A DNA stretch of 41,222 nucleotides from a virus. Made by a program: the position numbers and the translations under genes. The notes under the pieces were generated by a model, which had not been told where the DNA came from, made no database searches, and worked only from the letters and a program-made list of their open reading frames with translations. Positions 1-41,222 of the stretch are shown here, piece after piece. The stretch spans positions 1 to 41,222 of IMG/VR virus record IMGVR_UViG_3300032249_000988. One strand, given 5' to 3'. Position 1 is the first letter of the stretch, and every line of letters starts with the position of its first letter.

Positions 1-123
1 GCGAACTGCCCTGGATTGTCTGGTTGCCCTCTAGGATGGTCGGATTCAACGAATGAAGCCATCTTCGTGACTTCGGTATCGTCCTTTTGTTCAGGTGCAA
101 TCGGTTTTGTCTCTGGGAGTTCA
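1..123. repeat. Terminal direct repeat, left copy (circular-genome overlap)
   Basis: The first 123 bases are identical to the last 123 (41100..41222). The same minus-strand reading frame continues through both copies, so this is the overlap left when a circular, or circularly permuted, genome is written as a line. It is probably not a biological terminal repeat, because it falls inside a coding region. The unique genome length is therefore about 41,099 bp. Confidence 0.95.
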
Positions 124-215
124 ACCATTTCGCGATGGCCTTTGGCCACTCGGCTAGCTTCCTCCGGGGTCAGGTACCATTCGCTTTTTTGGGACTCGGT
201 GGGATCGTTGGCCAT
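1..215 (-). CDS. Polyvalent-type head protein, N-terminal part (continues at 40472..41222)
   Basis: This is the 5' portion of a 280-residue protein cut by the ends of the window. Translation starts at the ATG at 215 (protein begins MANDPTESQK), preceded by GGAG eight bases upstream and 18 bases after the stop of the portal fusion gene. It runs off base 1 in frame and continues in the copy of the same sequence at the right end. The first 51 residues are hydrophilic and acidic, and no domain is recognised in them. They lead into a MASFVESDHPRG module that resembles two modules inside the upstream portal fusion. The tight spacing suggests translational coupling with the portal gene. Function is unknown; it is probably a virion or co-injected protein. 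Confidence 0.85.
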   Translation of the reverse strand, partial: MANDPTESQKSEWYLTPEEASRVAKGHREMVELPETKPIAPEQKDDTEVTKMASFVESDHPRGQPDNPGQF

Positions 216-233: not shown

Positions 234-3200
234 TTAGGTTCCAAAGGATCGAAGAGACAATTTTAACTCGTCCATCATTGCGGACTTAACGGCTTCTTTC
301 TCTTTTTTGGTTTTCGCCAACAGAAGATCTGCCGCGTGCTTTTGGATCACTGCGTTTACTGGGCCCCGAAGATGAACTTCTCGATTGAAATCCTTGACGG
401 ATTGCTCTGCCGAATCGGATCGCTTAGCGTTTTCGTCGATCGCCAGTACGTTCCCAGCCTCCGATACCCGATTGTATCGGCGTTTGTTGGCCACGGCTCG
501 GTAGTCGTCGGCTTCCTGCTGAAGCATGCGGTTTGCAAACGATTCAAGTTCTACCTCCTGATCGAACGTCGATTTTTCATCTTCAAATGCACCGAACAAA
601 TCGAAGCCCGTTTGCGTTGCCTTTCCAGCGTTGGCCATCTTGCGTGCAGCCGTCTCGATTTCTCGCGTACTCCAGTCCTTGCCTTCGGTCTCTCGATCAG
701 CAAGTTTCTTGAACAATAGATCCTGAAGTGCTGGATCCTTGAGGTGCTTTGCGACGGCCAACGCGGTCGTTTCATCCAACCTCCCTTCGGTCACCTTCTG
801 GAATGCCTTATCGTTTAGGGCAGTAAGCGTCACCGCATCGGACGCCAGTTTCCCGGACATGCTGATCCCGGCTTCTCGCAGGTGGTCAAGGGTTTGCCCC
901 GAGTCTCGAAGGTACTTTGCGGCGTCGATGGCCGATCCTCGGCCTTCCGCGATATTCGCTAATGCCCCTCGAGCGCGAGCTTCCTTGGCGTTTGGCGCGT
1001 CGATGTATCTCGCATTGATGTGATCGGCATTGAGTCTGCTTGCCAATTCATGGCGATGGTGTCCGTTGATCACGTAGTCCTGCCCGTCGGATGGATCACG
1101 CCAAACCAATAGCGATCCGGCCAGTTCCGGGTTCCACTTGGAAACTCCCTTGAGTTCTCCAGTCACGCCATCCTCCCCGATGTCTTTCACTTTGTACTGA
1201 AATCGCTTTGGGTCAACTTTCAATGAAGACGTTGGGACCGTGTAGATGTCGCGGTTGTTGACTTGTTTTGGGGTGCCGTTTTCGTGAAACTTACTTGCTT
1301 GGCTGTCCGTTTGGCTTACCTTGCCGTGCAGCCGATCGGCGATCTTGGCGACCAATTGCGGTTTCGCTCCGCCTGCGCGGATACCGTGCTCCTTCTGCAT
1401 CTCCCGTAGCTGCTTGACAGTCAAGATCGAAAGGTGCTCTGTAACCGTCTTCAGAGAGCTGGGAGACCTTTGGCCGTTGAGCGCCTCATTGATCTTTTCC
1501 TTTGCAGCAGATGCCGCCTCGGGGCTGTTCTTGGCGATGAAACGTCCATTCGGCCCTCTGGGGTGATCGATGGCTGTCCATGCCATACGCTTGATGCCAT
1601 AGATTTTGTCAAACATTGCTTCAGCGTCATCGCCGTAGAGCGACGTAAGGATTTCCGCGATCGCTTCTGCCTGTTCATCGCCATTCTCTGGACGCTCGAT
1701 GACTTCGACGTCTCTGTCGTCATGGGGGACGGATAAGCCCATCGCTGTGAAGACTTCAAGCAACGAGAACTTGATAGGATCGGCCTGTCCGTGGCGTTTT
1801 TGTCGGTATGCGGTCATAAGCCCCGCGAAGGCTTCGGCCATGGACTCGGCTTCCGCGTTGGTTGGCCATAGGGAAGCTTCGCCAGACTCATCGGAGAGGC
1901 TAGAAAGATAGGTGTTTTTTCGGCCCTTGGTTTCCAGTTGCTTCTTTACGTGAACTTCAAAGCTTCGTGCGAAGCACTCAATAGAGCTATTCCAATAATC
2001 TCTTTTACCCTCGGATAGCTTTCCGTCTCTGATCATTTTCGATACCACGCCCCGTACCCGCCTCATAAAGGGCTTGGCCGCTTCTTGCCAAGAGGCCATG
2101 GCCCCTCTGATTTCTGGGTCTGGCAGTTCTTTTACCGTAAACTCATCATCACCCCGAGTTCGGTAGGCTTCGGCGGTGGCCGCATTGACTCGAAGAGGAT
2201 AGCCCCGCGTCTTGTGGGTAACTTCGTGGGTATGGGAAACGTCGACGTCGGACATATATTTTCCGCCGTCGCGGCCAATGCCAAAGCCACCGAGCATGTG
2301 ATCGAAGGCGTGGCCCCATTCGTGGGCGAAGGTTCCAACTCCGCTATTGCGGGTCATGTTGATCACTTGGTTTCCCGGCTCGTAGTGCGCGGCTGCCGTA
2401 CCGTGTCCACGAGCCCCGACGGCAAGTCCTAGTTTCCCATCAAGTGAAATATCTTTTGGGTGGAGCCCTGTGACATCCGCAAGGTCCGCTATGGCCTCAA
2501 CCATTCGGGCTGCATGGTGTTTCCGCTCTGAGTCCGTGACTGAATTGCCCCACTGAAAGCCCCTCAAACCATATTCGTCTATCAAATGGTCGACAGCTTT
2601 GTTTGGGTCCGAAGTTATCGACGCAAGATCCCTCCCGCCCATTCTTTCAGCCTTTTGACCGTACAGGTTCTTAAGCTCAAAATCCTTCCTTTTGACCCCG
2701 GTCTTGCTTTCTTTCCCGAAGGTCGCATTGATTGACTTCCCTTCAATGACATCCTTTGCGTGTTCCGCAGCCTTTTCCAACATGATCCGCTTGGACTCCA
2801 TGCCTTGCGGAGTGTTATCGGCGTTGAAAGCGTTTGTCCACTCGTCTCCGTACTTGGTTTTTAGCTCACTGGCAAACTCGTTCAGCTTGCCGTACGTGGT
2901 CGTCTTACTCGCATAGCGGCTGACCTCAAGAGAGTTTGCCAAGCCGACTAGGTTGTTAGCAAGGTTGTCAAAGCGATTTGCTTTTCTCCGCTCGTTGACA
3001 ATCCCCATGACGTGGCTTTGGAGTCTACGAATGGACTTTATCGAGTCTTTATCGTCATGAGTGGAAGCAATCTCTTCGGCCTTCGCCTTTACGCTTTGAT
3101 ATGCTGCCACGTAGTCACTGCGAAGCTCGGGCGTGTTCTTCGTGTTCTTCCCGTAAACTGGGTTTGGCGGAAAACCTCGCATGGCAAAGTGCATGGCCAA

Positions 3201-5510
3201 GGACGTCAACGGGGCCCGGTCTGCATGTTCCATCAAATTGTGAGGTTCAAGCTTCAAGAGCATGTCGCGATTGACAAGCTTCTCGGCTGTTCCGTCGGTT
3301 TCAGCGGATGCTAGCCCTTTCCAAGCGTTGACCTTGTGGCGAGCTGAATTCTTGAGGTCTTCGCCACGGTTGCCTACTTCGCTGTCGCGAGCGAATTCGT
3401 ACTCCTTCTTGGTTTCTTCTTGTTGGTCCGCAGCCTTTGCGGCCTCGCGTGGATCCGCCCCAGATTCCTCGGCTTTCGAAAATGCTTCCGTTGCTGCCGC
3501 TGGGGTTCCGTCGGCGTTGAAGACCTGCGTCGATCCGTCTGGATAGACGAACGGTTTCTTTTCCTTTGCCTTCAGTTCACCGGCTTTGGCTTCCGAGCTT
3601 TTGTCTGCCAAAGCAGTGTCGCTCGAGGCCTGAGGTTCTTCCTTGGAAGTTTCGGTTCCGGCGTCATCCTTGGGAGTACGTCTCCCTCGGTCCAGGCGAT
3701 CTGCGATCTTGTCTACGAGAGATTGCTTCGTCTTTCCTGCTGCCGAAACACCGTATTCCTGTTTCAGGTCGCGAAGTTGCTTGCCGTTCAGCAACGACAA
3801 ATGCTCAACCAGTTTTTTTGCACTCTCAGGTGTCTTGTTCGACTGTAGCGATTCCTTGACTGCATCCTTGGCCGCTGATACTGCCTCTGCGCTGTACTTG
3901 GGAATGAATCTCCCGTTTGGTCCTCGCGGATGGTCGATGGCGTTCCATGAAGCCATTTTTTGGACCTGCGAACCAAACATTTCGTCGAAGTGAGATTCCG
4001 CATCGTCTCCGTAGATGTGTTCGAGGATTTCCGCGATGGCTTCAGCGCGTTCCAGGGCTTCTTCGTCCGAGTCTTCGCCCTCGTCGGATTCTTTCAGCGA
4101 TAGCCGCAAGACACCATTATCCAAAGCTCTCCGAGCTGCTTCTACGATTGACGAAGCGGAAAGAACACCACGGCCAACCGCATCAACGGGGTCTAGGGTT
4201 CCCATGCGCTGCAGCATGCCTTGGTCCGCTGGATTCATAATGCCTGACGGGTCGCCATGCATCGCTTGGCCTTGATCGGTGCCAGCTTGCTTTTGTCCCT
4301 GTTGCTCCATCGCCGATTGTGCGAGTGGTTTATGGGTGATTTCGTATTCGACGTCGGTCCCAAAATTCATTCGGGCGATCGGGTCTAAAGTGCGGCGAAT
4401 GTCGCAAAGGATTTGCACCACCCACGAATCGAGACCGCTGTAGAACGCTGCGAGTGGAAGCGATTTGCCCTCCCAGGATCCAGCGCCGTCGTTGGAAATG
4501 GCACCGTCTGGGATCTCCATGCCTTGGCGTATTTCCGCATCAAGGTCTTTTGGATACTTCAAAATGTGTTCGGGATTCGAAGCTACTGTTGCCTCTGCGA
4601 TAATCCACTTCTCGTTGCCTTGATCGTCGCGCGTCGACGGATAGGTGAGAGTTCCACCCGCTTGGCGTTGCTCTACGATTTGCAGAGCAATATCCCTTGC
4701 TGGTACCGGGGTATCGTTCCCTTCTACAAAAACAGATTCCTCCGGGTATCCCACTTTCATCCCGCCGTATGCATCTTTGTGCATGTACAGGCGTCGAGTA
4801 TCGAGCGCACCGCCGTTGAGCCACTTGTCACACCATGGCGAATAGGCTCCGAGCAAAATTGGACAACTGTATCGCTCCCCGTCTTCAGGTCGGAAGTTTA
4901 TGAAGTAGCAGTACGGAAAGGGGAGTTGCACGACGCCCATGTTCTTCACGTTGTCGATTTGAACACCCCATGGAGTACCCGCATGCTCCCATTCCATGAG
5001 GCGGCAATCCCTAGCGTGGCGATGCAACAATTGATCGATTTCAATGAGATTCGAATCAGATAGCCGCAACGTTACTTCCCCTGCTGCCCAGCCCCATACT
5101 TGCGATCGCATGATCCCTGGTAGGTAATTATTCCATATCGTTTGGAGTTGTCGTAATACCCATGCCGCAACCACTGGATTCTTAGCTTTCACTCCAGGGA
5201 TCCAAGTAGGCTTCCCATCCTCGCCGATTCCATCTTGATAAGCGAACTCGACTGATTGAAGCGGGGCAGCTCGCATCGCGAGGCACAAGCGAACCTGCGG
5301 ATCTCGCAGCATGACCCGAATAGTCTCAAAGGTGAAGAGTGGAAGATCGCGATGCTGATTGAAATAAACGTAGTGAGGACCGCGATAGTGCTGCGTGCGA
5401 GGGTTTCCGCGTGGATTCTCCTTTGTCGGTACAGTCATGGCTTTTTCCGCATCGCCCGTCGGACGATTTCCCACCCCAACGTACGTCTCGAATTCCCATG
5501 ATTGACTCAT
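234..5510 (-). CDS. Portal protein fused to polyvalent cargo (LPD1 metallopeptidase-like and ParB-like domains)
   Basis: A 1758-residue protein; the ATG at 5510 overlaps the upstream stop as ATGA, which decides the start. Residues 1 to about 480 look like a Mu gp29-type portal, the ring through which DNA enters and leaves the capsid. Residues about 490-600 hold a module of YGDDAE, DHPRGPNGRF and a SAP-like helical segment, and about 1290-1390 repeat it. Between them is a charged linker, then an LPD1-type domain with GLRGFQWGN, GARGHGTAAAHYEP and HEWGHAFDH (around 1062), a zinc-metallopeptidase-like motif. Residues about 1420-1560 resemble a ParB-like domain (INGHHRHE), followed by a helical C-terminus. 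Known portals are about 400-600 residues, so the extra 1250 are exceptional. Polyvalent proteins are known phage and conjugative cargo modules; that this cargo is packaged and injected is inference. Confidence 0.85.
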   Translation of the reverse strand: MSQSWEFETYVGVGNRPTGDAEKAMTVPTKENPRGNPRTQHYRGPHYVYFNQHRDLPLFTFETIRVMLRDPQVRLCLAMRAAPLQSVEFAYQDGIGEDGKPTWIPGVKAKNPVVAAWVLRQLQTIWNNYLPGIMRSQVWGWAAGEVTLRLSDSNLIEIDQLLHRHARDCRLMEWEHAGTPWGVQIDNVKNMGVVQLPFPYCYFINFRPEDGERYSCPILLGAYSPWCDKWLNGGALDTRRLYMHKDAYGGMKVGYPEESVFVEGNDTPVPARDIALQIVEQRQAGGTLTYPSTRDDQGNEKWIIAEATVASNPEHILKYPKDLDAEIRQGMEIPDGAISNDGAGSWEGKSLPLAAFYSGLDSWVVQILCDIRRTLDPIARMNFGTDVEYEITHKPLAQSAMEQQGQKQAGTDQGQAMHGDPSGIMNPADQGMLQRMGTLDPVDAVGRGVLSASSIVEAARRALDNGVLRLSLKESDEGEDSDEEALERAEAIAEILEHIYGDDAESHFDEMFGSQVQKMASWNAIDHPRGPNGRFIPKYSAEAVSAAKDAVKESLQSNKTPESAKKLVEHLSLLNGKQLRDLKQEYGVSAAGKTKQSLVDKIADRLDRGRRTPKDDAGTETSKEEPQASSDTALADKSSEAKAGELKAKEKKPFVYPDGSTQVFNADGTPAAATEAFSKAEESGADPREAAKAADQQEETKKEYEFARDSEVGNRGEDLKNSARHKVNAWKGLASAETDGTAEKLVNRDMLLKLEPHNLMEHADRAPLTSLAMHFAMRGFPPNPVYGKNTKNTPELRSDYVAAYQSVKAKAEEIASTHDDKDSIKSIRRLQSHVMGIVNERRKANRFDNLANNLVGLANSLEVSRYASKTTTYGKLNEFASELKTKYGDEWTNAFNADNTPQGMESKRIMLEKAAEHAKDVIEGKSINATFGKESKTGVKRKDFELKNLYGQKAERMGGRDLASITSDPNKAVDHLIDEYGLRGFQWGNSVTDSERKHHAARMVEAIADLADVTGLHPKDISLDGKLGLAVGARGHGTAAAHYEPGNQVINMTRNSGVGTFAHEWGHAFDHMLGGFGIGRDGGKYMSDVDVSHTHEVTHKTRGYPLRVNAATAEAYRTRGDDEFTVKELPDPEIRGAMASWQEAAKPFMRRVRGVVSKMIRDGKLSEGKRDYWNSSIECFARSFEVHVKKQLETKGRKNTYLSSLSDESGEASLWPTNAEAESMAEAFAGLMTAYRQKRHGQADPIKFSLLEVFTAMGLSVPHDDRDVEVIERPENGDEQAEAIAEILTSLYGDDAEAMFDKIYGIKRMAWTAIDHPRGPNGRFIAKNSPEAASAAKEKINEALNGQRSPSSLKTVTEHLSILTVKQLREMQKEHGIRAGGAKPQLVAKIADRLHGKVSQTDSQASKFHENGTPKQVNNRDIYTVPTSSLKVDPKRFQYKVKDIGEDGVTGELKGVSKWNPELAGSLLVWRDPSDGQDYVINGHHRHELASRLNADHINARYIDAPNAKEARARGALANIAEGRGSAIDAAKYLRDSGQTLDHLREAGISMSGKLASDAVTLTALNDKAFQKVTEGRLDETTALAVAKHLKDPALQDLLFKKLADRETEGKDWSTREIETAARKMANAGKATQTGFDLFGAFEDEKSTFDQEVELESFANRMLQQEADDYRAVANKRRYNRVSEAGNVLAIDENAKRSDSAEQSVKDFNREVHLRGPVNAVIQKHAADLLLAKTKKEKEAVKSAMMDELKLSLRSFGT

Positions 5511-6007
5511 GCTCGTTGCCCTCGTTTTGCTTGCGAATCGACGAAGCGTTTGAAGGCTTCGGTTTTTAGTTTCTGCGAGTACGCTTCGTCCCCGGTCGCC
5601 AAGAGTGCTAAGTGATACACACCCTCGTAATCGGTTGGAGAATAGTCGCCGGTCGCTAACCGTTGCTTTGCTCGGTTGCGCACGATGTTGCTTTCTAGAC
5701 CCAGCTTTGTCTCCTCGGATAGCTGCGTTGGGTCGATGTGATATGCCCAAGCAATTTCGGAGTCTATTTCCATTGCTTGCGAGTAAGCGTCGATCGCTTC
5801 GGTAATCAGTTGCCAGAACTGCCAAGCCGCCGTTGTATCGCACTTTAATCCTTTGCTTTCTAGCAGCTCTGCCACTTGCTTCAAGAATGGCATGGTAGGA
5901 CGCATGTTCGCATTCCGAACTGGCAAGTTGCTGGCAAACTTCGTGATCTTCCTTGCCATTTCAAGCATTGAAACTTCAATAGTTTGGGATTCGTATTCGA
6001 TGATCAC
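5507..6007 (-). CDS. Tail-chaperone-like protein, paralogue of the 9141..9473 gene
   Basis: A 166-residue protein, coupled by ATGA overlaps to the distal tail gene upstream and the portal fusion downstream. Residues 40-80 (FLKQVAELLESKGLKCDTTAAWQFWQLI) match in pattern the C-terminal half of the 9141..9473 protein (FLKEYASALDHLGI, then CTSDTAFRFYNLI). The two are probably paralogues. Residues 80-166 add a helical, charged extension that the smaller protein lacks. Position after the distal tail gene and before the portal suggests an assembly role such as a chaperone or scaffold, but no specific function can be read from the sequence. Confidence 0.8.
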   Translation of the reverse strand: MIIEYESQTIEVSMLEMARKITKFASNLPVRNANMRPTMPFLKQVAELLESKGLKCDTTAAWQFWQLITEAIDAYSQAMEIDSEIAWAYHIDPTQLSEETKLGLESNIVRNRAKQRLATGDYSPTDYEGVYHLALLATGDEAYSQKLKTEAFKRFVDSQAKRGQRA

Positions 6008-7752: not shown

Positions 7753-9134
7753 GGCCCTCCGAATTTGGAGTTCATAATTTGCAGCAACATTGGATCAATC
7801 TGTTGCTGATTCTGCTGCGCGTTGCCTTGAAGGTTCAACCAGGCTTCATTCAATTTGAGGGCTAGATCTGCCATGCGGTCTGCGAAGTCTTTTTCCGCTT
7901 TTGCGTTTCGTGCCGCCGCAGCAGCGTCGTCCGCAGCATCCAGGGGGGTCAGCAAAGCTTTGTACGCTTCAATTTCACCCAGTATCCGCTCGATCACAGC
8001 AACCATAGCGCGAATACTAATGACAATCGCTTCCGCTGTATTGATTCCGGCGCTCAACTGTGGCTGAAACTTAGACACTAGATCAAGCAGGTCCGTAAGA
8101 AGCTTTTCTACCTGGTTCCCCAGAGCGCCCTTGGCCGCTTCGAGTCGTCCCGATGCTGGACCGATGCGTTGGGCTCGATCAAGTAGGTTTAATTCTGTGT
8201 TTGCTCGGCTGCGTGCCCTAGCAAGGGAAACATCAGGGGAGAATTTTTCGATGTCGTCCGCCGCATCGTTGAACGCTTTCACTAACACGCCACTAGCAAT
8301 TGCAACCGCTGCTAAGCCGGCTACTACGGCTCCCACCGCGACTCCAACACCCCCAATCGCCGCTGCCCCGGCACTTGCAGCTGCTGGAGCTGTAGCTCCT
8401 GTCGCTGCCGTGGCTGTCGCTGCCGTGGCTGTTGTTACCGCTGGCGCTGCAGTTGCCGCCGTTGCCGCTGTTGTTGCCGTGCTTGCAGCTCCTACTCCAA
8501 ACCTCGCAGCGACTTTAGACGAGACACTTGTTACTGCCTTGCCAAATCGAGTTTTGCCAACGCTGGTTGCAAGCGTTCTGGCACTCTTTGTGAATCGTTG
8601 CCCCACTGCCTTTCCGAGTCGAAAACCGGTTCGGATTGTCCGCGCCGTTGGTGATCGCTTTTCGACACTGTCTAAAAACCGACGTCCCGTCTCTCGCAAC
8701 TTGCCGAAAGTACTTCGAGGGTTACTTTCTGGTTGCGAGGTCGAATTGCTGTCTTGCCTATTTGGTTCCGACTCGGTTGCCCCCGATCGTTGGCTTTCTT
8801 TCTTTTGATACTCCGAAAGGAAGCGATCGAGGTTACGAGAGAAATCCTCTACGGGTCGCTCGAATAGCTCTGGCTTGAGCTTATCGTTGAGAACTTGGAT
8901 TGTCTCTCTCAGGTCAGAGACAGCTCCCTCGAGGGAATGGCGTTCCAGCCCCGTGCCATCCGACTGATGTCCGGATTCCGGTCGAGTTGTTGCAGTCGTC
9001 TCGGATGCGTTTGGGTTTGCGCGCGGATAGTCCTGCACGCCCGGATCCCTTGGGACGGACGTACTGATAGCCTCGCTTTCCTCCGGCGTGCTATCACCAA
9101 GCAGACGTATAACCAATTCTGCATCAGATGCCAT
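7749..9134 (-). CDS. Tape measure protein (short)
   Basis: A 461-residue protein with the expected build of a tape measure. It has a hydrophilic N-terminal third, a basic region rich in Arg/Lys (around 135-205), then a long Ala/Thr/Val low-complexity hydrophobic stretch (about 215-290, with a plausible membrane segment), and a helical C-terminal half. It ends with a Gln-rich tail. It lies between the chaperone-like gene and the distal tail gene, which is the usual place. Tape measure length scales tail length at roughly 0.15 nm per residue, so about 460 residues predicts a short tail of around 70 nm. The codon-level repeats around 8395-8480 encode the Ala/Val/Thr tract. Confidence 0.75.
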   Translation of the reverse strand: MASDAELVIRLLGDSTPEESEAISTSVPRDPGVQDYPRANPNASETTATTRPESGHQSDGTGLERHSLEGAVSDLRETIQVLNDKLKPELFERPVEDFSRNLDRFLSEYQKKESQRSGATESEPNRQDSNSTSQPESNPRSTFGKLRETGRRFLDSVEKRSPTARTIRTGFRLGKAVGQRFTKSARTLATSVGKTRFGKAVTSVSSKVAARFGVGAASTATTAATAATAAPAVTTATAATATAATGATAPAAASAGAAAIGGVGVAVGAVVAGLAAVAIASGVLVKAFNDAADDIEKFSPDVSLARARSRANTELNLLDRAQRIGPASGRLEAAKGALGNQVEKLLTDLLDLVSKFQPQLSAGINTAEAIVISIRAMVAVIERILGEIEAYKALLTPLDAADDAAAAARNAKAEKDFADRMADLALKLNEAWLNLQGNAQQNQQQIDPMLLQIMNSKFGGP

Positions 9135-9140
9135 GCCATA

Positions 9141-9473
9141 CTATCCCTTAGCCATGCTTTCGCATTGCGATTGAAGTTCGTTAGTCATCAATACGAATTG
9201 CGTTCCGATCAAGTTGTAGAACCGGAAAGCCGTGTCGCTTGTGCATCCTGGAATCCCAAGATGATCTAGGGCAGAGGCATACTCTTTTAGGAAAGCTATC
9301 GTTGGTCCGGAAACCTTGTTGGTGTCAGGCTTGCGCATCCCATGCTTGATTTCCAGTTCCTCAGCCAAAAGCTTCATTTCGACGACGTCATAGGAAAAGG
9401 TAGAGACCTCCCCCGCTCGCTCGACCTCGATCGACTTTCGGCCCGTGTGAATCCTCCAGGTCTTTTGTATCAT
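9141..9473 (-). CDS. Tail assembly chaperone-like protein
   Basis: A 110-residue protein placed between the tube candidate (stop 3 bases upstream of its start) and the tape measure, the standard position of a tail assembly chaperone. It begins with a short beta-rich region (TWRIHTGRKSIEVERAG) and continues as a helical domain with FLKEYASALDHLGI and TAFRFYNLIGTQFVLM. No slippery sequence was identified that would produce a frameshifted longer form. It shares its C-terminal pattern with the 166-residue protein at 5507..6007. Function is inferred from position and helix content. Confidence 0.65.
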   Translation of the reverse strand: MIQKTWRIHTGRKSIEVERAGEVSTFSYDVVEMKLLAEELEIKHGMRKPDTNKVSGPTIAFLKEYASALDHLGIPGCTSDTAFRFYNLIGTQFVLMTNELQSQCESMAKG

Positions 9474-9476
9474 CGG

Positions 9477-10013
9477 CTAGGTTTCCGTGCCGAATTCCCC
9501 GCCGCCCGTTCCGGTCGACTGGGTATGTGGCGTTGGGTAGTGTCGCATCCGAAGAGGGACGTCGCGCAGGTTGGTTCCGAGTAACTCTCGGATCGGGAAG
9601 TTTTCTGCGAGAGCCGTACGTGGTAGAGTTCTCGTCAAAGGTAACACGGCCGTCGCTCCGGTACCGCCGTTGGCGTTGATGACCGCAGCCGTGAGAAGCG
9701 AAGTGAGGACCAGAGACTTGGCAACCCCGTGCTGCCGATCCAGGATGCCAACAACGCCGTTGACGAATGCCGATCCCCCCGCTGCATTGTATGGACGAAT
9801 TATATCGTTGAGCGCCGCCGCGTCCGCCTCAATGAACGTGACATTGCTCAAGAGGTCGACGCCAAGATACATCCCATCCTGTGCCGCTTGGCCCATCCAA
9901 TCGCCCGTGATGAGACGCTTGTAAATTTGCCTTTCGAAGACGATTCCATCTTGCGATTGCCCGCAGACTTTCGCGTTGTACCCCATCAAATATGCACCGG
10001 CGACGAAGCCCAT
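9477..10013 (-). CDS. Tail tube protein candidate
   Basis: A 178-residue protein starting MGFVAGAYLMGYNAKVCGQS. It sits after the small connector genes and before the chaperone and tape measure, where siphophages encode the tail tube. The sequence is balanced, with predicted beta strands and a Gly/Thr-rich C-terminus (TQSTGTGGGEFGTET). No diagnostic motif is visible. An alternative is another connector or minor tail protein. Confidence 0.5.
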   Translation of the reverse strand: MGFVAGAYLMGYNAKVCGQSQDGIVFERQIYKRLITGDWMGQAAQDGMYLGVDLLSNVTFIEADAAALNDIIRPYNAAGGSAFVNGVVGILDRQHGVAKSLVLTSLLTAAVINANGGTGATAVLPLTRTLPRTALAENFPIRELLGTNLRDVPLRMRHYPTPHTQSTGTGGGEFGTET

Positions 10014-10023
10014 GGTATGCCCC

Positions 10024-10530
10024 TTAGTAGTGGATTGAAAATCCGGTTCGGTAGTTTTGTGGCACTTCGACCAAGCAGTCCAAGCAGTTAGCCGTCGCTC
10101 GATCAGAAGTCGCTAATTCGTGGTTGTAAATGGTTGAAATAACGTGCCGCTTGTTCTCGACGTCGCATCCAATGCGATAACGCAATCCACCTTGCCCGAC
10201 GATATGGCCCATCGGGTCCCTTACGAGCAAGTGAGTTTTGGCTAGGATCCCAACCATCGGAGCTTGGCAAGCGCCGCACTTTGGGCAGGGAACCAGGTCG
10301 TTTTGGATTTCAAACCGGAATTCCATTCCATGCTCTGAGCATTCTGGGTTCGAGCAAAAGGCGAAATTGCGTTGCCGGGTTGTTCTTTCGTCAGGGATGA
10401 CGATACCCGCGTCCGATGTCGCCATCGGTAATGGCTTGATCGCTGCGAGAATCGCCGCAACCGGGTCATTCGGATTCGACTCCGACCGGAATGCAGGATT
10501 GTTTGATACGCTTGGATTCTTCCAGTTCAT
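10024..10530 (-). CDS. Zinc-ribbon phage structural/assembly protein of unknown function
   Basis: A 168-residue protein coupled to the upstream gene by ATGA. Residues about 57-92 contain two Cys pairs (FCSNPEC and CPKCGACQ), consistent with a zinc ribbon, followed by a beta-rich region with GQGGLRYRIG. Two more cysteines (CLDC) lie near residue 150. Its place between the terminator-like gene and the tube candidate suggests a structural or assembly role. It is not a family I can name. Confidence 0.6.
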   Translation of the reverse strand: MNWKNPSVSNNPAFRSESNPNDPVAAILAAIKPLPMATSDAGIVIPDERTTRQRNFAFCSNPECSEHGMEFRFEIQNDLVPCPKCGACQAPMVGILAKTHLLVRDPMGHIVGQGGLRYRIGCDVENKRHVISTIYNHELATSDRATANCLDCLVEVPQNYRTGFSIHY

Positions 10531-11105
10531 ATTCTCGCCGCCTTATTCAGTTGCCCGACGGTTTGGATGCGACGCAAGCCACCGAAATAGATCGATCGCG
10601 CCATTGCGACGAATGGTGTTGTCCCTTTGCCTCCTGGGTTCATGCCTGCGAATAGGTCCGAGTTGACCATTCTCGGCTTGGCGTCGACGCGTTCGTATCT
10701 GAGCATTTCGATAAAAGGCTGAGCGCTCGGGCTGTCTCGAAACAACAATGCGTTAATGTAACTCAAAAGGTCATGTTGCCAATCGAGCGCAGCAAAAACC
10801 CGTCCGAGGTCCGCATTGAGCCCATGCAAGCGATTCAAATAGATGGAACGCCTTTGATCCCTTGCGGTGAACGATCGCTGTATCACGAGGACCTGAACGG
10901 AATGGATGACATCACGAACTCCACCGCTTGGCCGATGTGTGGGGCCGGGTGCGATGCCTGCCCCGATGACGGCAAAATAGACGTCCGATGCAATCGACGG
11001 CACTTGGTCGTCGAACTCACAATCGCATTGCCCATCAGACAAGCTGAGCTTGCGCCGTAAGACGTCCCGTACCCCTTCAAGTACGCATACTTCGCCTTCG
11101 ATCAT
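10527..11105 (-). CDS. Tail completion/terminator-type protein
   Basis: A 192-residue protein. The ATG at 11105 overlaps the gpG-like stop (ATGA) and is preferred over an in-frame start 25 codons upstream that would lie deep in that gene. The fold appears mixed alpha/beta, with VYFAVIGAG and HSVQVLVIQRSF near the middle. Position directly after gp36-like and gpG-like connectors and before the tube candidate fits a tail terminator or joining protein. No catalytic motif is present. Confidence 0.55.
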   Translation of the reverse strand: MIEGEVCVLEGVRDVLRRKLSLSDGQCDCEFDDQVPSIASDVYFAVIGAGIAPGPTHRPSGGVRDVIHSVQVLVIQRSFTARDQRRSIYLNRLHGLNADLGRVFAALDWQHDLLSYINALLFRDSPSAQPFIEMLRYERVDAKPRMVNSDLFAGMNPGGKGTTPFVAMARSIYFGGLRRIQTVGQLNKAARI

Positions 11106-11959
11106 GCTGCCTCCCCGAATGCTTGCCGCATGCCGTTTCCGATCGCTTGAAGGCCCACGCCTGCCCATCGCCGTGCCCATACCGCTGGGATGCGTTCCGG
11201 GAAGATCTGACGCTTGGGGACTCCCTTTCCTTTGTTGTGCGCCCCCGCGTATGCGACTGTTGTTCCAATGACGATGCCGTCCTGCAAGGCGCGGAATACT
11301 TGTTTGTCCCCTCCGTCCCCTGCTGGTGCGGTGTATTCATTCCCATCGAGGTATCCAGGCGATATTGAGTTGAAGAGGACGCCCGTGTCCCTCAGGATGT
11401 CGACAACGCGATTACCGTAGACTTCTAGCTTGGTTTTGGCCCCTTCGGACTTAAGCACATTCCATGCGTGGCTAGCCGCGATCGCTTTGGCTTGCTTTTC
11501 CCCGAACCTCGCCATGGCCCATGCAAAGGTTTGAGCAAAGACGGTTTTCCATCGTTTCTGTTGGGCCGCGGTAAGCAGTCCCGTGTTCCCGCCGAATACA
11601 GGTTGGAGTAGATCATCTTCCCACCGACTTCCCACAACGCGATTTCCACCGACTCCTCGATTGTGACCTTTGCCAAGCCCCGCAGCTTGTTTGAGCGCAG
11701 CTTGTTCCCCAGGTCCGAAGCGACGGCCGTAAGCCAGATACTTCTTTGAAAGCTTCGGCCAACTGATTCCAGCCTCATCCGTCCCCCCTCGCGATTTGAC
11801 TATGAAGGCCTCTTGGACGTCGGACAGTGCCGCGAGTCCGATCGCATGAAAAACCCCACGGGCAATCCCCTGCGAATCTGGGGCTCGCCCAACAAGCTGT
11901 GCAACCACGCCGCGAATGAGTGCGATTGCTTCGTCTCGGTTTCCGTTAAAGTCAACCAT
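11102..11959 (-). CDS. Mu gpG-like virion morphogenesis protein
   Basis: A 285-residue protein; the ATG at 11959 overlaps the preceding stop by eight bases and is preferred to a start 35 codons upstream inside that gene. The C-terminal part has the gpG-type pattern: GVLFNSIS, then VAYAGAHNKG, PKRQIFPERIP and a terminal helix. Mu gpG-family proteins act at head-tail joining or tail completion. The N-terminal 150 residues add a Gly-rich region (GLGKGHNRGVGGNR) and a helical stretch, making it longer than typical family members (about 150-190 residues). Confidence 0.65.
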   Translation of the reverse strand: MVDFNGNRDEAIALIRGVVAQLVGRAPDSQGIARGVFHAIGLAALSDVQEAFIVKSRGGTDEAGISWPKLSKKYLAYGRRFGPGEQAALKQAAGLGKGHNRGVGGNRVVGSRWEDDLLQPVFGGNTGLLTAAQQKRWKTVFAQTFAWAMARFGEKQAKAIAASHAWNVLKSEGAKTKLEVYGNRVVDILRDTGVLFNSISPGYLDGNEYTAPAGDGGDKQVFRALQDGIVIGTTVAYAGAHNKGKGVPKRQIFPERIPAVWARRWAGVGLQAIGNGMRQAFGEAA

Positions 11960-12470
11960 TGAAGAATCCCCCGTTCTGTCCGATGTCTCGAGGTAGCGCG
12001 CTGTCGACGGGTCGCGTAGTCTGCCGTACAACCCGCACCGACTTGTTCGGATACCGTCGATCAATCCGTAAGTTGCTCATCACAGGTGCCGAGGATGGCT
12101 TTCCGATGATGATGCTGCCGTTGGCGTCAACAAGAGCAATGATCCCGGTAAATACTTGGGTTAGGAATCCCGACCGAGGGTCGATGATTTCCTGGTATCG
12201 CATTTCCAGCGAATCTGGAATAGGGTTTCCTCGCCTGGTGCAAAGCGTTCTCGCCGCGATAACCGTAGTCCATTCTCGGAGAATTGGAGCGTTTACCAAA
12301 ACCGTTGGCGAGTACATTGCTGCGAGACGTCCCTTGACGTATGCGATCGCGAATGCGATGCATTCGTCTGCCGAGCTGCCGTCCGAGCCCCCCTCGTCTT
12401 GCTCCGAAAATGAAATGACGCCTTGGGCGGTAATCAACCGCGTCAAGGCGTCAAGGTCGGTTAAATTCAT
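11952..12470 (-). CDS. Mu gp36-like (DUF1320) head-tail connector
   Basis: A 172-residue protein starting with the short helix MNLTDLDALTRLI, followed by an acidic DEG region and helices with YVKGRLAAMYSP and the family-like LREWTTVIAARTLCTRRGNPIP segment. This matches the DUF1320/gp36 pattern of small helical connectors encoded after the major capsid gene in Mu-like heads. It starts 15 bases after the capsid gene stop. The C-terminal 50 residues are basic and lack a recognised domain. Confidence 0.75.
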   Translation of the reverse strand: MNLTDLDALTRLITAQGVISFSEQDEGGSDGSSADECIAFAIAYVKGRLAAMYSPTVLVNAPILREWTTVIAARTLCTRRGNPIPDSLEMRYQEIIDPRSGFLTQVFTGIIALVDANGSIIIGKPSSAPVMSNLRIDRRYPNKSVRVVRQTTRPVDSALPRDIGQNGGFFNG

Positions 12471-12485
12471 GGCAACCGCCTATCC

Positions 12486-13628
12486 TTAGAACTGGACAGT
12501 ACCAAAAGCCATAGCCGATGGGACGTGGTTTGCAATCATGGCGTTGTCGAGGACATACAACTCAGTTGCCGTTGGATTGGAACGCGCTACGGACCAGGAA
12601 CTCAAACCCGTCTTGACGTTCATCGGCCCGCCGTCATATTCCGCAATCGGTTCCGAGCCTTCGTACATCCCGACCACGTCATCGCCCGGTGTGAATCCGA
12701 TGAAAGCTGCATTGTTGGCCGGAATGATCTTCTGATACGTTTCAGACCCGGGTAAGCCGATTTCTAGCCCTTCGTCGGTGATGTAGAAGATCGTTTGCGG
12801 CATGAAGTTCAATCTTGCCATGTAAACGTTCTTCATCGTCTTCGCAACCGTTTCTTCCCCCATCCAATCGATACTCACAAATGGAGCGCTCGAGGTCCCG
12901 TGGAGGGCTTGTACGAAAGCGTTGCCAATGATGTTGTTCCACTGTTGCCAGTTGGTGATAACTGCACCCAGGAACCCGCCGCATAGTTGTTGGAACGCCG
13001 CGTTGATGTTGCCAAAAACCAGGGGAATATCGGTCGAATCGGAGGCAAACGAGCCCGTGATGATGTTGCCCGCGCCAAGCATGTTCAACTGCCCTTGATT
13101 GCCAGACGGCATACGGAAATTCACCCGTTCGCCTGTGATCCCCGGATCCGTCAACGAGAAGTACTCATCGTCGCCGTTTCTCGCGACGTAGAGCGAATCG
13201 CGAAGCATTCCCATCAACTGCACCTTGCGCCAGTTGGCCGCAAGTTGCCCGAGGGTTGTGGTTTGTCGAGAAACCATATCCTTGCCTGCTACGTCTCGTA
13301 CCGCTGGATCGTCGATTTTCGACAAGTTGTGAAGTTGTTCCGCAACAAGCGAGACCGAATCATGCATTCGTGGATACGAAAACATTACCTTTCCCATCGG
13401 TTGCGGTGCACGTCGTGCAGCCGCTGATCCAGGTGTTCGACCCCTGGCAACTTTCCGAGTGTTGTTATAGACATGGAATGCGCCTTCGCGTCCATGTCCC
13501 TGGTTGATCATGTTCTTGCCGCCCGGCTGGACGCCAAACAAAGCCGCAAGCCAATCGGAACTCGCTGCCACTTGGCTAACGGTTCGCGTGAGAACCTGTG
13601 GGTTCAACAAGGTTTGTAGAGCTGGCAT
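12486..13628 (-). CDS. Major capsid protein
   Basis: A 380-residue protein downstream of protease/scaffold and decoration genes, the canonical position. It begins MPALQTLLNPQVLTRTVSQV and is rich in small and polar residues. Segments such as FGNINAAFQQLCGGFLGAV, QTIFYITDEGLEIGLPG and PFVSIDWMGEETVAKTM fit an HK97-fold or lambda-E-like shell protein. The upstream intergenic region holds a tandem 13-mer and a hairpin, with an AGGA ribosome site 11 bases before the ATG. No transmembrane segments or enzymatic motifs are seen. The assignment rests on order, size and composition. Confidence 0.8.
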   Translation of the reverse strand: MPALQTLLNPQVLTRTVSQVAASSDWLAALFGVQPGGKNMINQGHGREGAFHVYNNTRKVARGRTPGSAAARRAPQPMGKVMFSYPRMHDSVSLVAEQLHNLSKIDDPAVRDVAGKDMVSRQTTTLGQLAANWRKVQLMGMLRDSLYVARNGDDEYFSLTDPGITGERVNFRMPSGNQGQLNMLGAGNIITGSFASDSTDIPLVFGNINAAFQQLCGGFLGAVITNWQQWNNIIGNAFVQALHGTSSAPFVSIDWMGEETVAKTMKNVYMARLNFMPQTIFYITDEGLEIGLPGSETYQKIIPANNAAFIGFTPGDDVVGMYEGSEPIAEYDGGPMNVKTGLSSWSVARSNPTATELYVLDNAMIANHVPSAMAFGTVQF

Positions 13629-13659
13629 GAAAAAAACGTCCTGTTAAAAGGTAAGAATC

Positions 13660-13697
13660 TGTGAGCTAGTCGTGTGAGCTAGTCGCCGTGTCGACTA
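13660..13697 (-). repeat. Tandem 13-mer and hairpin between decoration and capsid genes
   Basis: In the 69-base gap between the decoration and capsid genes, TGTGAGCTAGTCG occurs twice in tandem (13660..13672 and 13673..13685). The second copy ends in TAGTCG, which pairs with CGACTA across the loop CCGTGT. No T-tract follows, so it is not an obvious intrinsic terminator. It may be an RNA-stabilising or processing element for capsid mRNA; that is inference. Confidence 0.5.
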
Positions 13698-14537
13698 CTA
13701 GGTTGCCAAGGTTTGAGTAAGGAACGCGCCCGTGCTGAATGGGACCGGTACGATTTCCGCAAGCCACTTGAGAGTTGGCGTCGCTCCTACGTATTCACAC
13801 GAGACCCGAATCCGTGCCCCAATCTTGTTCGCGGCTGTCGAGTAAGTGATCGAGTCTGCGGACAAGTCATTGCCAACGATGATGTTGTCACCTTCGGCGG
13901 AAGTGACGACAAGGTTATGGTCAGACACTCTCATGAACTCGAAACTTAATCCAGCTCGGATGGCTGGAAGCGTGAAGTTCGCATTAGCCGTATCAGCGAA
14001 GAACCTTGTACCGTTGTCCGCCGCAACAACCGTGTAATCGGTGATCTTTGTCGATGATCGTGCTACAACGCCCGCCCTGTACCCGTTCACGTCATCGTCG
14101 AGAACGCAACCCATTTGATGGAGGCGACGACGGGCTGTGTATTCGTGGATGCTGCCAACGAGTGGCGAGCCGAGCACAATCAACGAGGATGCTTTCAAGG
14201 GTGCTACGACAACGATAGGCACTGCGTTCCTCTTCGCGGCCCCCATTCCGTCTTGTGTGATCAACTCGAATTGCAAGACGCCGTCCAGTTCCTGGGAACC
14301 GTCGGTTGCAAGTGGGTTCCATTGCGCATGCTGGTCGGATGCGGTAATCTTGCCAAGCAGCATTCCTTTTCGGATTTGCCACGTTGGAGTAGCGCCCGCA
14401 TCAACCGTCGCGCTTGATACCATCCCCGGCTTTGTCAGCACGAGAATCCGCGAGGCGTCGCCACCCCAAAACAGTTCAGAATCGACCGTTTCGGCGAGTA
14501 CTGTAAAACCAGGTGTTCCAAATTGTCCGTAGTTCAT
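13698..14537 (-). CDS. Head decoration protein, extended
   Basis: A 279-residue protein between protease/scaffold and the major capsid gene. Residues 1-125 (FTVLAETVDSELFWGGD, GMLLGKITASDQHAQW) look like a lambda gpD-type decoration protein, including the usual K.GTVLGKITA-type motif. Residues about 160-279 form an additional beta-rich domain (TKITDYTVVAADNGTRFFADT...) of the type found in tail appendages and surface proteins. Fused surface domains on decoration proteins are known in tailed phages and may bind host or environment; that role here is inference. Confidence 0.75.
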   Translation of the reverse strand: MNYGQFGTPGFTVLAETVDSELFWGGDASRILVLTKPGMVSSATVDAGATPTWQIRKGMLLGKITASDQHAQWNPLATDGSQELDGVLQFELITQDGMGAAKRNAVPIVVVAPLKASSLIVLGSPLVGSIHEYTARRRLHQMGCVLDDDVNGYRAGVVARSSTKITDYTVVAADNGTRFFADTANANFTLPAIRAGLSFEFMRVSDHNLVVTSAEGDNIIVGNDLSADSITYSTAANKIGARIRVSCEYVGATPTLKWLAEIVPVPFSTGAFLTQTLAT

Positions 14538-14552
14538 TCCGGCAGTTCCTTG

Positions 14553-15821: not shown

Positions 15822-15901
15822 GTGTGGAAGTATGCCGATCCTGTCGATAGACCGCTAGCGCCGCATGCAACGGACGCAACAATCGCAACAATGACAACAA
15901 G

Positions 15902-17408: not shown

Positions 17409-17416
17409 TTTGGTTC

Positions 17417-26737: not shown

Positions 26738-26739
26738 CG

Positions 26740-38169: not shown

Positions 38170-39455
38170 TAGCACACCTCCACAACGCACCAACGGTCAT
38201 CCATGGGAAATAGTATCACCCGCTTGTCCGTTGCGATCGCAGGCCCACGGTTGTAGACAAACTGCACCTTGCTCGATGTCGTCCACATACCGCCCGATAC
38301 CGGATCGTCAACAAATACTTCGCCGGTGGAATCCGCCGCGATAGTGTTGAATGTCTTGCCCCACAATGGCGTTGGAGCTGGCGGTTCGGTGCGGTCTGGC
38401 CAAGGCATAGGCGGCGAATACTGCTTTACCCGCGTGCAATGCCCTTGTGCGTTGTCGCCAACGTACCAAGTGACTCGTGTTATCCCTGGACCTGGCACTA
38501 CGTCCAATAGACCGTAGAAGGTGTCGTCGTAATCGTTCCGTTCGGCCTGGTGCCATGCGTTCGCAACGGTTTGAATGGCGGTCAGTCGGGCAGAGAGAAC
38601 ACCCGCGTTTTTGTCTGATAGTTCGTGATCGAGAAGGATGATTTCTTTTGCGTCGCCTCCACTTCCGATCGCGGTCGAACTGGATTTTGGGTGATAGGGA
38701 TAATACTTCGTTGGCCATACCGTAACCTTGCCGTGAAGCACTGGGTTTCCTTCTATCGTCCCGATAAGCTTTTCAGTTCGCGCTGCTGTGATCTTAGGTG
38801 GGACCGTCACGTTGCTGACGTCTACATAGGACGCTGTACCGTCCCGGCTAATCGTTAGGGCGTAGCCAAGCGATGCAAGGATTCCATCGAGAGCCGCAGC
38901 GGTCGATCCTGTGCTTTTCAGGTTTCTTGGAATGCCGGATCCACCCGCTGGAAGTGATGGCGCTGTAATTGGTCCGAGCAGCTCCGTCACGATGTGCTGA
39001 TACGTGTACGGAACGCCGCTATTCAAATGCAGGGGCTCGTAGGTGATTGTTTCGGCAAGGGATGCCGTAAATGTCACGTATCGTACTTCGTTCCAGATCT
39101 TCGCCGTTTCCGCTCTGTCGAGTTTGTGACGCACGTCTCGCAGAATGACGAGCGAATAGCCTCGTTGATTTTCTTCCGCAATTTCAACCGGAATGTACTT
39201 TTTCCAGCTCATCGAATCGGCTTGTTGCCATATCGTTAAACCGTCATTTTCTCGGGTAAAGATGTTGGCAACGATGTCAACAGAAGACTGCTGCAATACC
39301 TTTTCTGCGTCATCCGTTCGTAGGTAGAATTGAGCAAATCCAGAGACGGCCCCTCGCGGCATATCAAGAAACTGCTTTTGGGGGTTGGTCGATGGTTCAG
39401 GGCACTCTACATCAAAGCCTCCAACCTTCCATTTGTAAGCATAAACCTTCGTCAT
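38169..39455 (-). CDS. Tail hub / baseplate protein candidate
   Basis: A 428-residue protein starting at the ATGA overlap with the MuF stop; an earlier in-frame start inside MuF is rejected. The sequence has a beta-rich N-terminus (YAYKWKVGGFDVECPEPS), a middle region with YTYQHIVTELLGPITAPSLPAGG and LDGILASLGYALTISRDGTASYVDV that resembles hub proteins, and a beta-rich C-terminus. No enzymatic motif is present. Placement after portal/MuF is unusual for a hub, and a minor head protein is an alternative. Confidence 0.5.
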   Translation of the reverse strand: MTKVYAYKWKVGGFDVECPEPSTNPQKQFLDMPRGAVSGFAQFYLRTDDAEKVLQQSSVDIVANIFTRENDGLTIWQQADSMSWKKYIPVEIAEENQRGYSLVILRDVRHKLDRAETAKIWNEVRYVTFTASLAETITYEPLHLNSGVPYTYQHIVTELLGPITAPSLPAGGSGIPRNLKSTGSTAAALDGILASLGYALTISRDGTASYVDVSNVTVPPKITAARTEKLIGTIEGNPVLHGKVTVWPTKYYPYHPKSSSTAIGSGGDAKEIILLDHELSDKNAGVLSARLTAIQTVANAWHQAERNDYDDTFYGLLDVVPGPGITRVTWYVGDNAQGHCTRVKQYSPPMPWPDRTEPPAPTPLWGKTFNTIAADSTGEVFVDDPVSGGMWTTSSKVQFVYNRGPAIATDKRVILFPMDDRWCVVEVC

Positions 39456-40468
39456 GCTGCCACCCTTCCACGGCTTCCAAATCCTGGCTTCGCAGCAAAT
39501 GGGATGTCTTGATACCGCCATTCCGGTCGCATCGGCGCGACGCCGGTATCGAGCCACTCGATTGCTTCCTTGACGCCCAACTTAGCCGCCTGGGAGATGG
39601 TCAGCATGCGTACGCCGCAACGGCACTGGTAATCCCAAGGGGGCGTGAACATATCCCAGAACGGATCGTCTCGGCGATAGACCGCCGTCTCGTTGAGACC
39701 CAGCTTCTCGAGTTCCTTGTGCTGGTGCCTGGTTCTCGCATCATGCTGGGCGAGGTACTGCTGATAGGGGAAGATCCCAGCGACAACCGGATGGCTGGCC
39801 AACGTCTCACGTCCATCGCGGAATGCGGCTTGGACGTTGGTGCGATAAATATTCTCCACTCTGGCCGGGCCGATGGCAGAACGGTTCAGAACGTCGCTGA
39901 CTCGGTCCCGAAACGTGAGAAGCGACGTGCCGTCGGATAAATCGTTGACAAGCTCATCCCGGACCTTTGCGATTGTGTCCCGAGTGATGTCGCCGGTGAT
40001 GAAGAACGCTCGCTCCTGCGCGGACCGCGTTGCCGCATCCCAGTCGCTGCGGGTCATGATGTTGCGATCGGCGAGTTTCTCTGCTGCCTTCTCGATCAAT
40101 GGGAATCGCAGTTTAGGCTCGTCGCCAAACATGTCAAAGAGAGAAAATCGAGGACGGTCCGGGGGAAAATGGCCAAAACGTCCATCAATAAAGTCGCCGA
40201 GTAGCCACTTTGGGAGCTGCTTGGCCAACGTATCCATACCACCCGTCCAGCTAGCCATCTCGGTATCCGTCAGATGGTCGACAATGACAGGAACTGAATC
40301 GTTCATCACTTTCCAGATTGCCGAAAGCAAGTTCGATTGCGGTGCGTAGATTGGTCCGGTAGCAGCATCGCCAATCCGTCCGCGAATTTCTGCAAACAAA
40401 GCCTCAGCCCCGATGAGGGCCATGCCTGCTATGCGATCAAGCGGTTCTATGGGGGTTAGGCTAGCCAT
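39452..40468 (-). CDS. MuF-like minor head protein
   Basis: A 338-residue protein matching the Mu gpF family. It has a helical N-terminus, then ARVENIYRTNVQAAFRDGRE, FPYQQYLAQHDARTRHQHKELEKLGLN, YRRDDPFWDMFTPPWDYQCRCGVRMLTISQA and GVKEAIEWLDTG. The Cys-Arg-Cys segment is characteristic. gpF-type proteins sit in the head near the portal and are often fused to toxin or polyvalent domains; here the polyvalent domains are on the portal instead. It starts four bases after the preceding stop. Confidence 0.9.
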   Translation of the reverse strand: MASLTPIEPLDRIAGMALIGAEALFAEIRGRIGDAATGPIYAPQSNLLSAIWKVMNDSVPVIVDHLTDTEMASWTGGMDTLAKQLPKWLLGDFIDGRFGHFPPDRPRFSLFDMFGDEPKLRFPLIEKAAEKLADRNIMTRSDWDAATRSAQERAFFITGDITRDTIAKVRDELVNDLSDGTSLLTFRDRVSDVLNRSAIGPARVENIYRTNVQAAFRDGRETLASHPVVAGIFPYQQYLAQHDARTRHQHKELEKLGLNETAVYRRDDPFWDMFTPPWDYQCRCGVRMLTISQAAKLGVKEAIEWLDTGVAPMRPEWRYQDIPFAAKPGFGSRGRVAA

Positions 40469-40471: not shown

Positions 40472-41222
40472 TTACTTGAGGTTAGCGTCCATCTCCTCGA
40501 CTGCCCGGATTGCATCATCCTCCAGTGAGGTGTTCACTTGCTGACCATCGGTCGCCCATGAAAATCCACCCTCGTTGGAGGCGTGCTTGCGCTCAGCAGT
40601 CTCTGGTACATCGTGGTCCGAGATGCGCAGGCGATTACCGTTTTTAGTGTAGTACAGACTTCCGGATGTCGTCATCGATTCGGGTTTCCAACCAAGCTCA
40701 ACGGCGCGAGTGTGAGCTTCAGCCATGCGCAGCTTCGCTTCCTGTCGACCGACAAACCTTACGTCAACCAAATCGCGTCCAAAATCAGTTTTAGCGATCG
40801 CAATTGCCTTTTCTGCGGAAGTTCTCATTTTGTCGACAGCAGTGTTTATCTCCTCTGGCTCTTTGATGGTCGTTGGCGTTGATTCGGACTGCTGCGAATC
40901 TTGTTCCGTAAAATCGCTGTCATCGCTGGATTCTGTTTCGAAAAGCTCCTCGTGATCTACATACTGTTTTGGAAGCATATTCCGACGTTCGATTTCCTTT
41001 TTCACTGCCCAGTAGGTGTCTTCGCCGTGCTGCTTTCGAACTTGCCCGCGCGACATTTTTCCGGTTTGGACAGCGTCCGCTAATTCGGAGTGCTTCGAAG
41101 CGAACTGCCCTGGATTGTCTGGTTGCCCTCTAGGATGGTCGGATTCAACGAATGAAGCCATCTTCGTGACTTCGGTATCGTCCTTTTGTTCAGGTGCAAT
41201 CGGTTTTGTCTCTGGGAGTTCA
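40472..41222 (-). CDS. Polyvalent-type head protein, C-terminal part (starts at 215 across the junction)
   Basis: This is the larger part of the 280-residue protein that begins at the ATG at 215 of the circular genome. It contains MASFVESDHPRGQPDNPGQF, like the DHPRGPNGRF modules of the portal fusion, and a helical segment with RGQVRKQHGEDTYWAVKKEIERR. An acidic Ser/Thr-rich linker follows (about 105-155). The C-terminal domain has DVRFVGRQEAKLRMAEAHTRAVELGW and SLYYTKNGNRLRISDHDVPETAERK. This LRISDHDVP-type motif occurs in polyvalent and mobile-element proteins. Its stop lies four bases before MuF. A virion or injected-effector role is likely but not demonstrated. Confidence 0.85.
   Translation of the reverse strand, partial: ELPETKPIAPEQKDDTEVTKMASFVESDHPRGQPDNPGQFASKHSELADAVQTGKMSRGQVRKQHGEDTYWAVKKEIERRNMLPKQYVDHEELFETESSDDSDFTEQDSQQSESTPTTIKEPEEINTAVDKMRTSAEKAIAIAKTDFGRDLVDVRFVGRQEAKLRMAEAHTRAVELGWKPESMTTSGSLYYTKNGNRLRISDHDVPETAERKHASNEGGFSWATDGQQVNTSLEDDAIRAVEEMDANLK
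41100..41222. repeat. Terminal direct repeat, right copy (circular-genome overlap)
   Basis: The last 123 bases equal bases 1..123. See the left copy: the overlap shows the genome is circular or circularly permuted, and the gene running through it should be read once. Confidence 0.95.

Follow-up and report, generated by a model that had tools for sequence, protein, structure and literature searches.

The window is a stretch of 41,222 nucleotides (positions 1 to 41,222 of IMG/VR virus record IMGVR_UViG_3300032249_000988). Its ends are joined by a 123-bp direct terminal repeat, which makes a closed genome of about 41.1 kb probable, and the presence of an integrase gene (PF00589) suggests that the phage may be temperate. 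On the minus strand lies a single gene in which a portal domain is followed by a long cargo arm. Its parts are as follows, with domain names based on profile matches:

234..5510, minus strand: portal-cargo fusion gene, 1758 codons, 194.5 kDa (ATG at 5510, stop at 234-236)
4281..5510, minus strand: portal domain, residues 1-410 (PF06074, AlphaFold2, Foldseek against the PDB, family of 47 loci)
4101..4280, minus strand: Q/G/P-rich linker and conserved portal C-terminal helix, residues 411-470 (helix 437-466 at 4113-4202)
3666..4100, minus strand: module A copy 1, residues 471-615, with a helical part, DHPRGPNGRF (3906-3935) and a SAP-like part
2694..3665, minus strand: cargo region without assigned function, residues 616-939 (dN/dS 0.137)
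1791..2693, minus strand: predicted zincin-like metallopeptidase and LPD1, residues 940-1240 (HEWGHAFDH at 2298-2324, LPD1 at 1800-2006)
1641..1790, minus strand: cassette-exchange zone, residues 1241-1290, a short linker in the window and a 2H phosphoesterase (Acb1-like) in relatives L002-L006
1329..1721, minus strand: module A copy 2, residues 1264-1394, with the second DHPRGPNGRF (1539-1568) and a SAP-like part at residues 1363-1392
261..1262, minus strand: ParB-like domain (probably DdrB-type), residues ~1417-1750, with a GHHRHE motif at residues 1483-1488

The first-pass annotation had described one unbroken frame of 1758 codons opening at an ATGA overlap. Translation bore this out, with no internal stops and with the ATG overlapping the TGA stop of the upstream gene (5507-6007); the strand had to be corrected to minus. 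Shine-Dalgarno-like matches at internal starts near the junctions were only weak, so there is no clear signal for separate translation of the cargo. The complete fusion is also present in five other IMG/VR contigs (L002-L006) at about 95% identity, and partially in L007, and the overall dN/dS of the gene is 0.115 when the window is compared with L095, which is the same contig as L006. These five contigs and the low dN/dS exclude chance or a sequencing fault. The window is a metagenomic contig without an isolate, which might raise the suspicion that assembly or annotation had joined two genes. However, the identical fusion in the five other contigs, analogous fusions in most of 25 portal clusters and selection constraining the sequence on either side of the junction leave this explanation with next to no probability.

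The N-terminal part had been called a gp29-like portal joined to polyvalent domains, a description that held up through PF06074, the portal fold, LPD1 and the ParB-like domain. Residues 1-480 alone matched Portal_Mu (PF06074) at 24.2 bits, marginally above the curated cut-off of 23.9; the portal match was not visible when the whole fusion protein was the query. Among relatives, the same model scored 25.0 bits in L090 (above the cut-off) and 21.4 in L048 (below it). Residues 1-480 also matched phrog_113 'portal' (E 4.5e-4). An AlphaFold2 model of residues 25-415, computed from an alignment of 29 sequences, reached a pLDDT of 78.9, while an earlier alignment of eight sequences had given a poor model (pLDDT 50). 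A search of the PDB with Foldseek returned 104 matches at E<=1e-3, and the best 50 of these 104 were all portals or portal/neck complexes, led by the G20C portal (E 4e-13) and including the Mu neck portal (E 3.5e-8). The portal fold, on which the earlier proposal had been made to depend, is therefore found in the N-terminal part. By hhalign, the family portal alignment matched three Mu-like portals only weakly (best E 0.047, other window proteins no better than 0.12), so we base the portal assignment on Pfam and fold and not on this comparison. BLASTP gave no match to the MMP7 portal. We rejected phrog_21, also labelled 'portal', as portal evidence, since its match is confined to profile positions 951-1351 and falls on the ParB-like part.

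The helix at residues 437-466 recurs in most family portals and, weakly, in the bare portals L111 and L117 (short portals of 442-489 aa). We had considered it as a cargo-specific release element and dropped this idea, as it occurs in bare portals as well. By sequence it is probably the native portal C-terminus. The cargo therefore starts near residue 470 and spans about 1290 residues; the claim of a large cargo stands, with its length of about 1250 residues corrected. The arm has a mass of 142 kDa, and 12 copies would total 1.7 MDa.

Next to the portal, across the circular join, lie two further genes of interest:

1..215, minus strand: 5' part of a third cargo-carrier gene (280 aa, crossing the circular join), with a conserved N-terminal peptide SEWYLTPEEASRVAKGHREM
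40472..41222, minus strand: 3' part of the third cargo-carrier gene, with a HPRGQPDNPGQF motif
39452..40468, minus strand: MuF minor head protein, without cargo in the window (PF04233, 40.1 bits)

MuF thus adjoins the portal with one small gene between them, and it comes after the portal in most loci that reach far enough. The setting predicted for head-carried cargo, a Mu-type portal with polyvalent domains and a MuF gene close by, was recovered. The order terminase-portal-MuF was not found in the window: the terminase gene occupies 17417-18910, and the portal comes after tail genes. The distance of about 12 kb between the terminase gene and portal/MuF, which come after apparent tail genes, is an unusual arrangement. 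The genes preceding the portal are common to relatives in conserved order. The third carrier protein varies in length: it has 280 aa in the window, 56 aa in L002-L004, L095 and L096, and 865 aa in L123, whose N-terminal peptide is less close. MuF itself is extended in L102 (at least 1957 aa) and L106.

The fusion gene places unrelated activities on one polypeptide (portal, zincin/LPD1, SAP-like and ParB-like) and sits among virion genes: MuF is close by, and the order of the virion-region genes ahead of the portal is conserved. The two copies of module A are 53-54% identical to each other, their SAP-like match lies below the Pfam cut-off, and the module is single-copy in most ParB-bearing relatives. 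Residues 616-939 had no family match in a Pfam-type domain scan. The first-pass annotation had placed HEWGHAFDH within an LPD1-type domain. LPD1 is indeed present (PF18796, residues 1169-1237, E 9e-12), and HEWGHAFDH (residues 1063-1071) lies N-terminal to it, in a zincin-like region; the zincin/LPD1 region as a whole matched phrog_616 (E 3e-32). The HEXXH of HEWGHAFD at residue 1063 is followed three residues downstream by an Asp, a feature of phage-type polyvalent zincins (PMC5512222). Both HEWGHAFDH and a downstream E in LPD1 are conserved in L008, whose similarity begins at cargo residue 677. L008 is another phage, in which an open frame of 3549 aa (8870-19519, plus strand), preceded by a frame of 502 aa, shows 47% identity to cargo residues 677-1251. 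The ParB-like domain is backed by profile and sequence matches: residues 1349-1755 match phrog_21 profile positions 951-1351 (E 5e-97), and the domain shares 31% identity with a protein of about 2570 aa that Prochlorococcus T7-like phages encode in their virion-gene region. Pfam models of ParB gave no match in this part.

Relatives of the portal could be reached by family alignment only. Residues 1-480 found nothing by tblastn among 50,697 phage records, even at E 10, and a single-sequence portal query found nothing in genome contigs. An alignment of eight family portals (A2) retrieved 47 viral loci at 40-100% identity and matched two planctomycete assemblies (Planctomycetaceae, Pirellulaceae). 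Family portals were present in 12 of 398 genomes of the class of one planctomycete relative. Since portal relatives occur in planctomycete assemblies, the host of the window phage is, by this sequence relationship, probably a planctomycete. One planctomycete contig (G132:C9, 300-370 kb; L147, L157, L159) holds several family portal genes with differing arms.

The family portal ORFs are between 442 aa (bare) and 2952 aa long, with at least 600 aa in 21 of 26 portal variants; several arm lengths are lower bounds set by contig ends. The suggested search for other portals with LPD1 fusions had a divided outcome: zincin/LPD1 arms were found only in near-identical relatives, while other polyvalent arms are common in the family. 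Judged by Pfam matches, the cargo domains are of effector types: Zeta toxin, 2H/Acb1, ADP-ribosyltransferase, SNF2 helicase and topoisomerase IB. Zeta toxin arms are found in L075, L089 and L090 as well as in L134; the arm of L120 carries an ADP-ribosyltransferase and a 2H domain, that of L116 a 2H domain and that of L107 a topoisomerase IB.

Among close relatives, cargo is exchanged, gained or lost on a portal that does not change, as seen in groups whose portals link at 90% identity or more. Linked portals carry ParB in L126 (1220 aa) and an SNF2 helicase with a weak methylase match in L128 (2351 aa); L131 (2358 aa) is linked to L134 (2952 aa, with Zeta toxin). Between L112 (ParB, at least 975 aa) and both L113 (560 aa) and L114 (538 aa), cargo is absent between partly kept ends. 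The window provides a further example. Its genome is 94-98% identical to that of L095 over the compared stretches, and a 2H phosphoesterase follows LPD1 in L002-L006 without a counterpart in the window, the only contig in which the variant lacking 2H was seen. In L006 this domain scored 42.3 bits against PF13563 and 32.7 bits against Acb1 (PF23474, cut-off 27), and its translation has two HxT motifs (SHVTLLYG, PHVTIAYM). Nucleotide differences between the window and L095 peak at residues 1231-1320, around the 2H insertion point, and dS is raised in the second module A (0.37, against about 0.07-0.08 in the portal and ParB parts). Together, these sequence patterns are consistent with recombination.

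The SAP-like and ParB-like parts could act on DNA within the head instead of in a host, and the arm might hold or order DNA around the portal like an internal core and never be injected. These parts may bind DNA, by their sequence; module A occurs twice, and no other cargo is as widespread in the family as the ParB-like part. Set against this, arms are optional (442-aa portals) and differ or are absent within near-identical phages (L113, L114), and Zeta toxin, ADP-ribosyltransferase, 2H phosphoesterase and topoisomerase have no obvious use in a packed head. We therefore regard a purely internal role as unlikely.

We considered, too, that early termination, proteolysis or mixed expression might leave most of the 12 subunits as bare portals and only a few full-length. 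A single head would be heavily loaded by twelve arms of up to about 2500 aa (L134), and this steric load speaks for fewer arms. Near locus position 10070, L126 and L127 are identical over about 1.6 kb but for one base, which in L127 creates a stop at the end of the portal domain and leaves a 391-aa portal and a separate cargo frame; this is either a natural variant or a sequencing error. A single stop codon can thus yield a bare portal from an otherwise identical gene, but L127 is one variant, perhaps an error, the frame is intact in relatives, and a scan of the larger window proteins recognised no second portal gene. A minority of armed subunits seems to us improbable.

Selection acts on every part of the protein. 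In the comparison of the window with L095, dN/dS was 0.026 for the portal, 0.020 for zincin/LPD1 and 0.051 for the ParB-like domain, with values of 0.12-0.25 in linkers and modules. Purifying selection on the cargo enzymes equals that on the portal. Portal interiors contact scaffolds in other phages, and the arm might accordingly help in assembly or scaffolding and then be removed and degraded before the head matures. The cargo, however, includes an enzyme with a conserved active-site motif and a dN/dS as low as that of the portal, it varies freely between close relatives, and bare portals exist, which makes such a role very unlikely.

We consider it likely that the gene encodes a true portal whose C-terminus carries interchangeable effector modules, which would be loaded into the head, freed, ejected with the DNA and active in the host. 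This suggests that the portal ring serves as a platform for loading proteins delivered with DNA. Portal C-termini face the capsid interior, so interior loading is in line with expectation, and portal assembly would put up to 12 arms into the procapsid before DNA packaging. The portal stays in the virion, and ejection of the arm would therefore need cleavage. In the window phage, the arm would most likely be freed from the ring by its own HEWGH zincin; alternatively, another head protease may cut the Q/G/P-rich linker or the HPRG..GRF junctions. Self-release by a zincin cannot be general, as most family arms have no zincin match. The gpI-like protease that had been proposed for this step was not supported: for the candidate at 14553-15821, neither Pfam nor PHROGs nor NCBIfam gave a convincing match, and BLASTP showed no significant similarity to Mu gpI or to the I-like protein of MMP7. 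The freed arm would exit through the tail together with the DNA, and its predicted enzymes, a ParB-type nuclease/NTPase and a metallopeptidase, would act in the newly infected cell; in sister phages, the arm may also bring a cyclic-nucleotide phosphodiesterase.

A motif from the arm, [WF]xExxHPRGx[DN]G[KR]F, recurs in unrelated phages where a portal or a MuF protein meets its cargo. The HPRG motif of module A, written as a degenerate DNA pattern, matched 81 IMG/VR stretches (L016-L092 and L002-L004), and each of the 86 protein-level matches examined falls within an open frame of 103 codons or more. Of 56 distinct sequences, 52 have W or F four residues ahead of the motif and 36 have E two residues ahead of it, although neither position was required by the search pattern. 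Outside the portal family of the window, the motif is preceded by a Pfam portal of another type in nine of 30 proteins and by MuF in seven of 30. It is followed by an ADP-ribosyltransferase in seven of 43 and by NUDIX in three of 43, and also by InPase, PBECR1, PBECR3 and 2H. In the planctomycete contig, the portal copies of L157 and L159 match around the junction and diverge directly after HPREKTGRFAKKGSG (HPREKTGRF motif). With carriers before it and effectors after it in unrelated phages, the HPRG..GRF motif, on these profile matches, marks carrier-cargo junctions. Cleavage or docking are obvious candidates for its role. More tentatively, it could be a general load-and-release signal in unrelated phages, such that an effector after it would be carried in the head and cut free, and the portal would be the docking hub of a modular, exchangeable delivery system; the carrier may be a portal, a MuF protein or a short targeting peptide. 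We hold this broader reading to be rather doubtful. Among the papers listed by a literature search, HPRG had only unrelated uses, and no paper was found that names a 'GRF motif' with MuF or phage portals. Jamet 2017 (PMC5576092) does not contain the words 'motif', 'linker' or 'cleav' and does not mention the junction motif. A second recurring linker, roughly APxGYTxxxPLxIxGxxYxGGxFIP, is placed at portal-cargo and MuF-cargo junctions in L084, L115, L126, L128 and the MuF gene of L090.

Portal fusions to PBECR, 2H, InPase, Nudix and ART have been published, and their injection proposed (Iyer 2017, PMC5512222; 2022, PMC9503650). The window fusion is therefore an unusually large and modular variant and not the first of its type. 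It shares with those fusions a portal domain followed by effector domains, but belongs to a divergent Mu-type portal lineage of phages with planctomycete relatives, with arms of up to about 2500 aa that carry ParB-like, zincin/LPD1, Zeta toxin, helicase or topoisomerase domains, and it adds cargo exchange between near-identical portals and a shared junction motif. As far as our searches go, what is new is this lineage with its long arms and several additional types of cargo, together with the documented swaps and the junction motif. P1 DdrB, which is processed and packaged in the head (PMC5512222), combines a DdrB-like ParB with a C-terminal zincin; by this description the combination is common to both, whereas in the window both domains are fused to a portal and the zincin comes before the ParB-like part. 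MuF polymorphic toxins (Jamet 2017, PMC5576092) also have a constant head-protein N-terminus and a variable effector C-terminus, encoded near the portal, but here the carrier is the portal itself and MuF is separate and bare. The fold, the weak sequence match and the nearby MuF are shared with the Mu gp29-type portal (PF06074), from which the window protein differs by its roughly 1290 extra residues and by the position of its gene, after tail genes and about 12 kb from the terminase. A further Foldseek match, A0A6J5NR05 (BFVD, 619 aa), has the fold of a portal and is named for an Acb1-like domain, which invites comparison with the 2H insert of L002-L006; its portal sequence is different (11% identity) and the protein is much shorter.

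Portals are usually regarded as conserved packaging motors. In the window lineage, the portal seems to act as an effector carrier that changes quickly, much as polymorphic toxins do, and the domains attached to it resemble anti-CBASS, Zeta toxin, ADP-ribosyltransferase and helicase factors. Near-identical phages that are naturally bare or loaded (L112, L113 and L114; the window and L095) make a role as head cargo directly testable, and the HPRG..GRF motif offers a sequence handle for further head-carried effectors in metagenomes.

Among the other genes of the window, 25910-26845 (minus strand) has a weak match to papain-family (C1) peptidases, below the cut-off. A 382-aa protein at 35829-36977 (minus strand) has a weak Erv1/Alr-like stretch (25.1 bits, cut-off 27.6) and, after it, what by eye resembles a glycosyltransferase-type region. 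Finally, 24533-25072 (minus strand) encodes a lipid desaturase domain protein (PF10520, 119 bits), from the plasmanylethanolamine desaturase family; such a gene is unusual in a phage.
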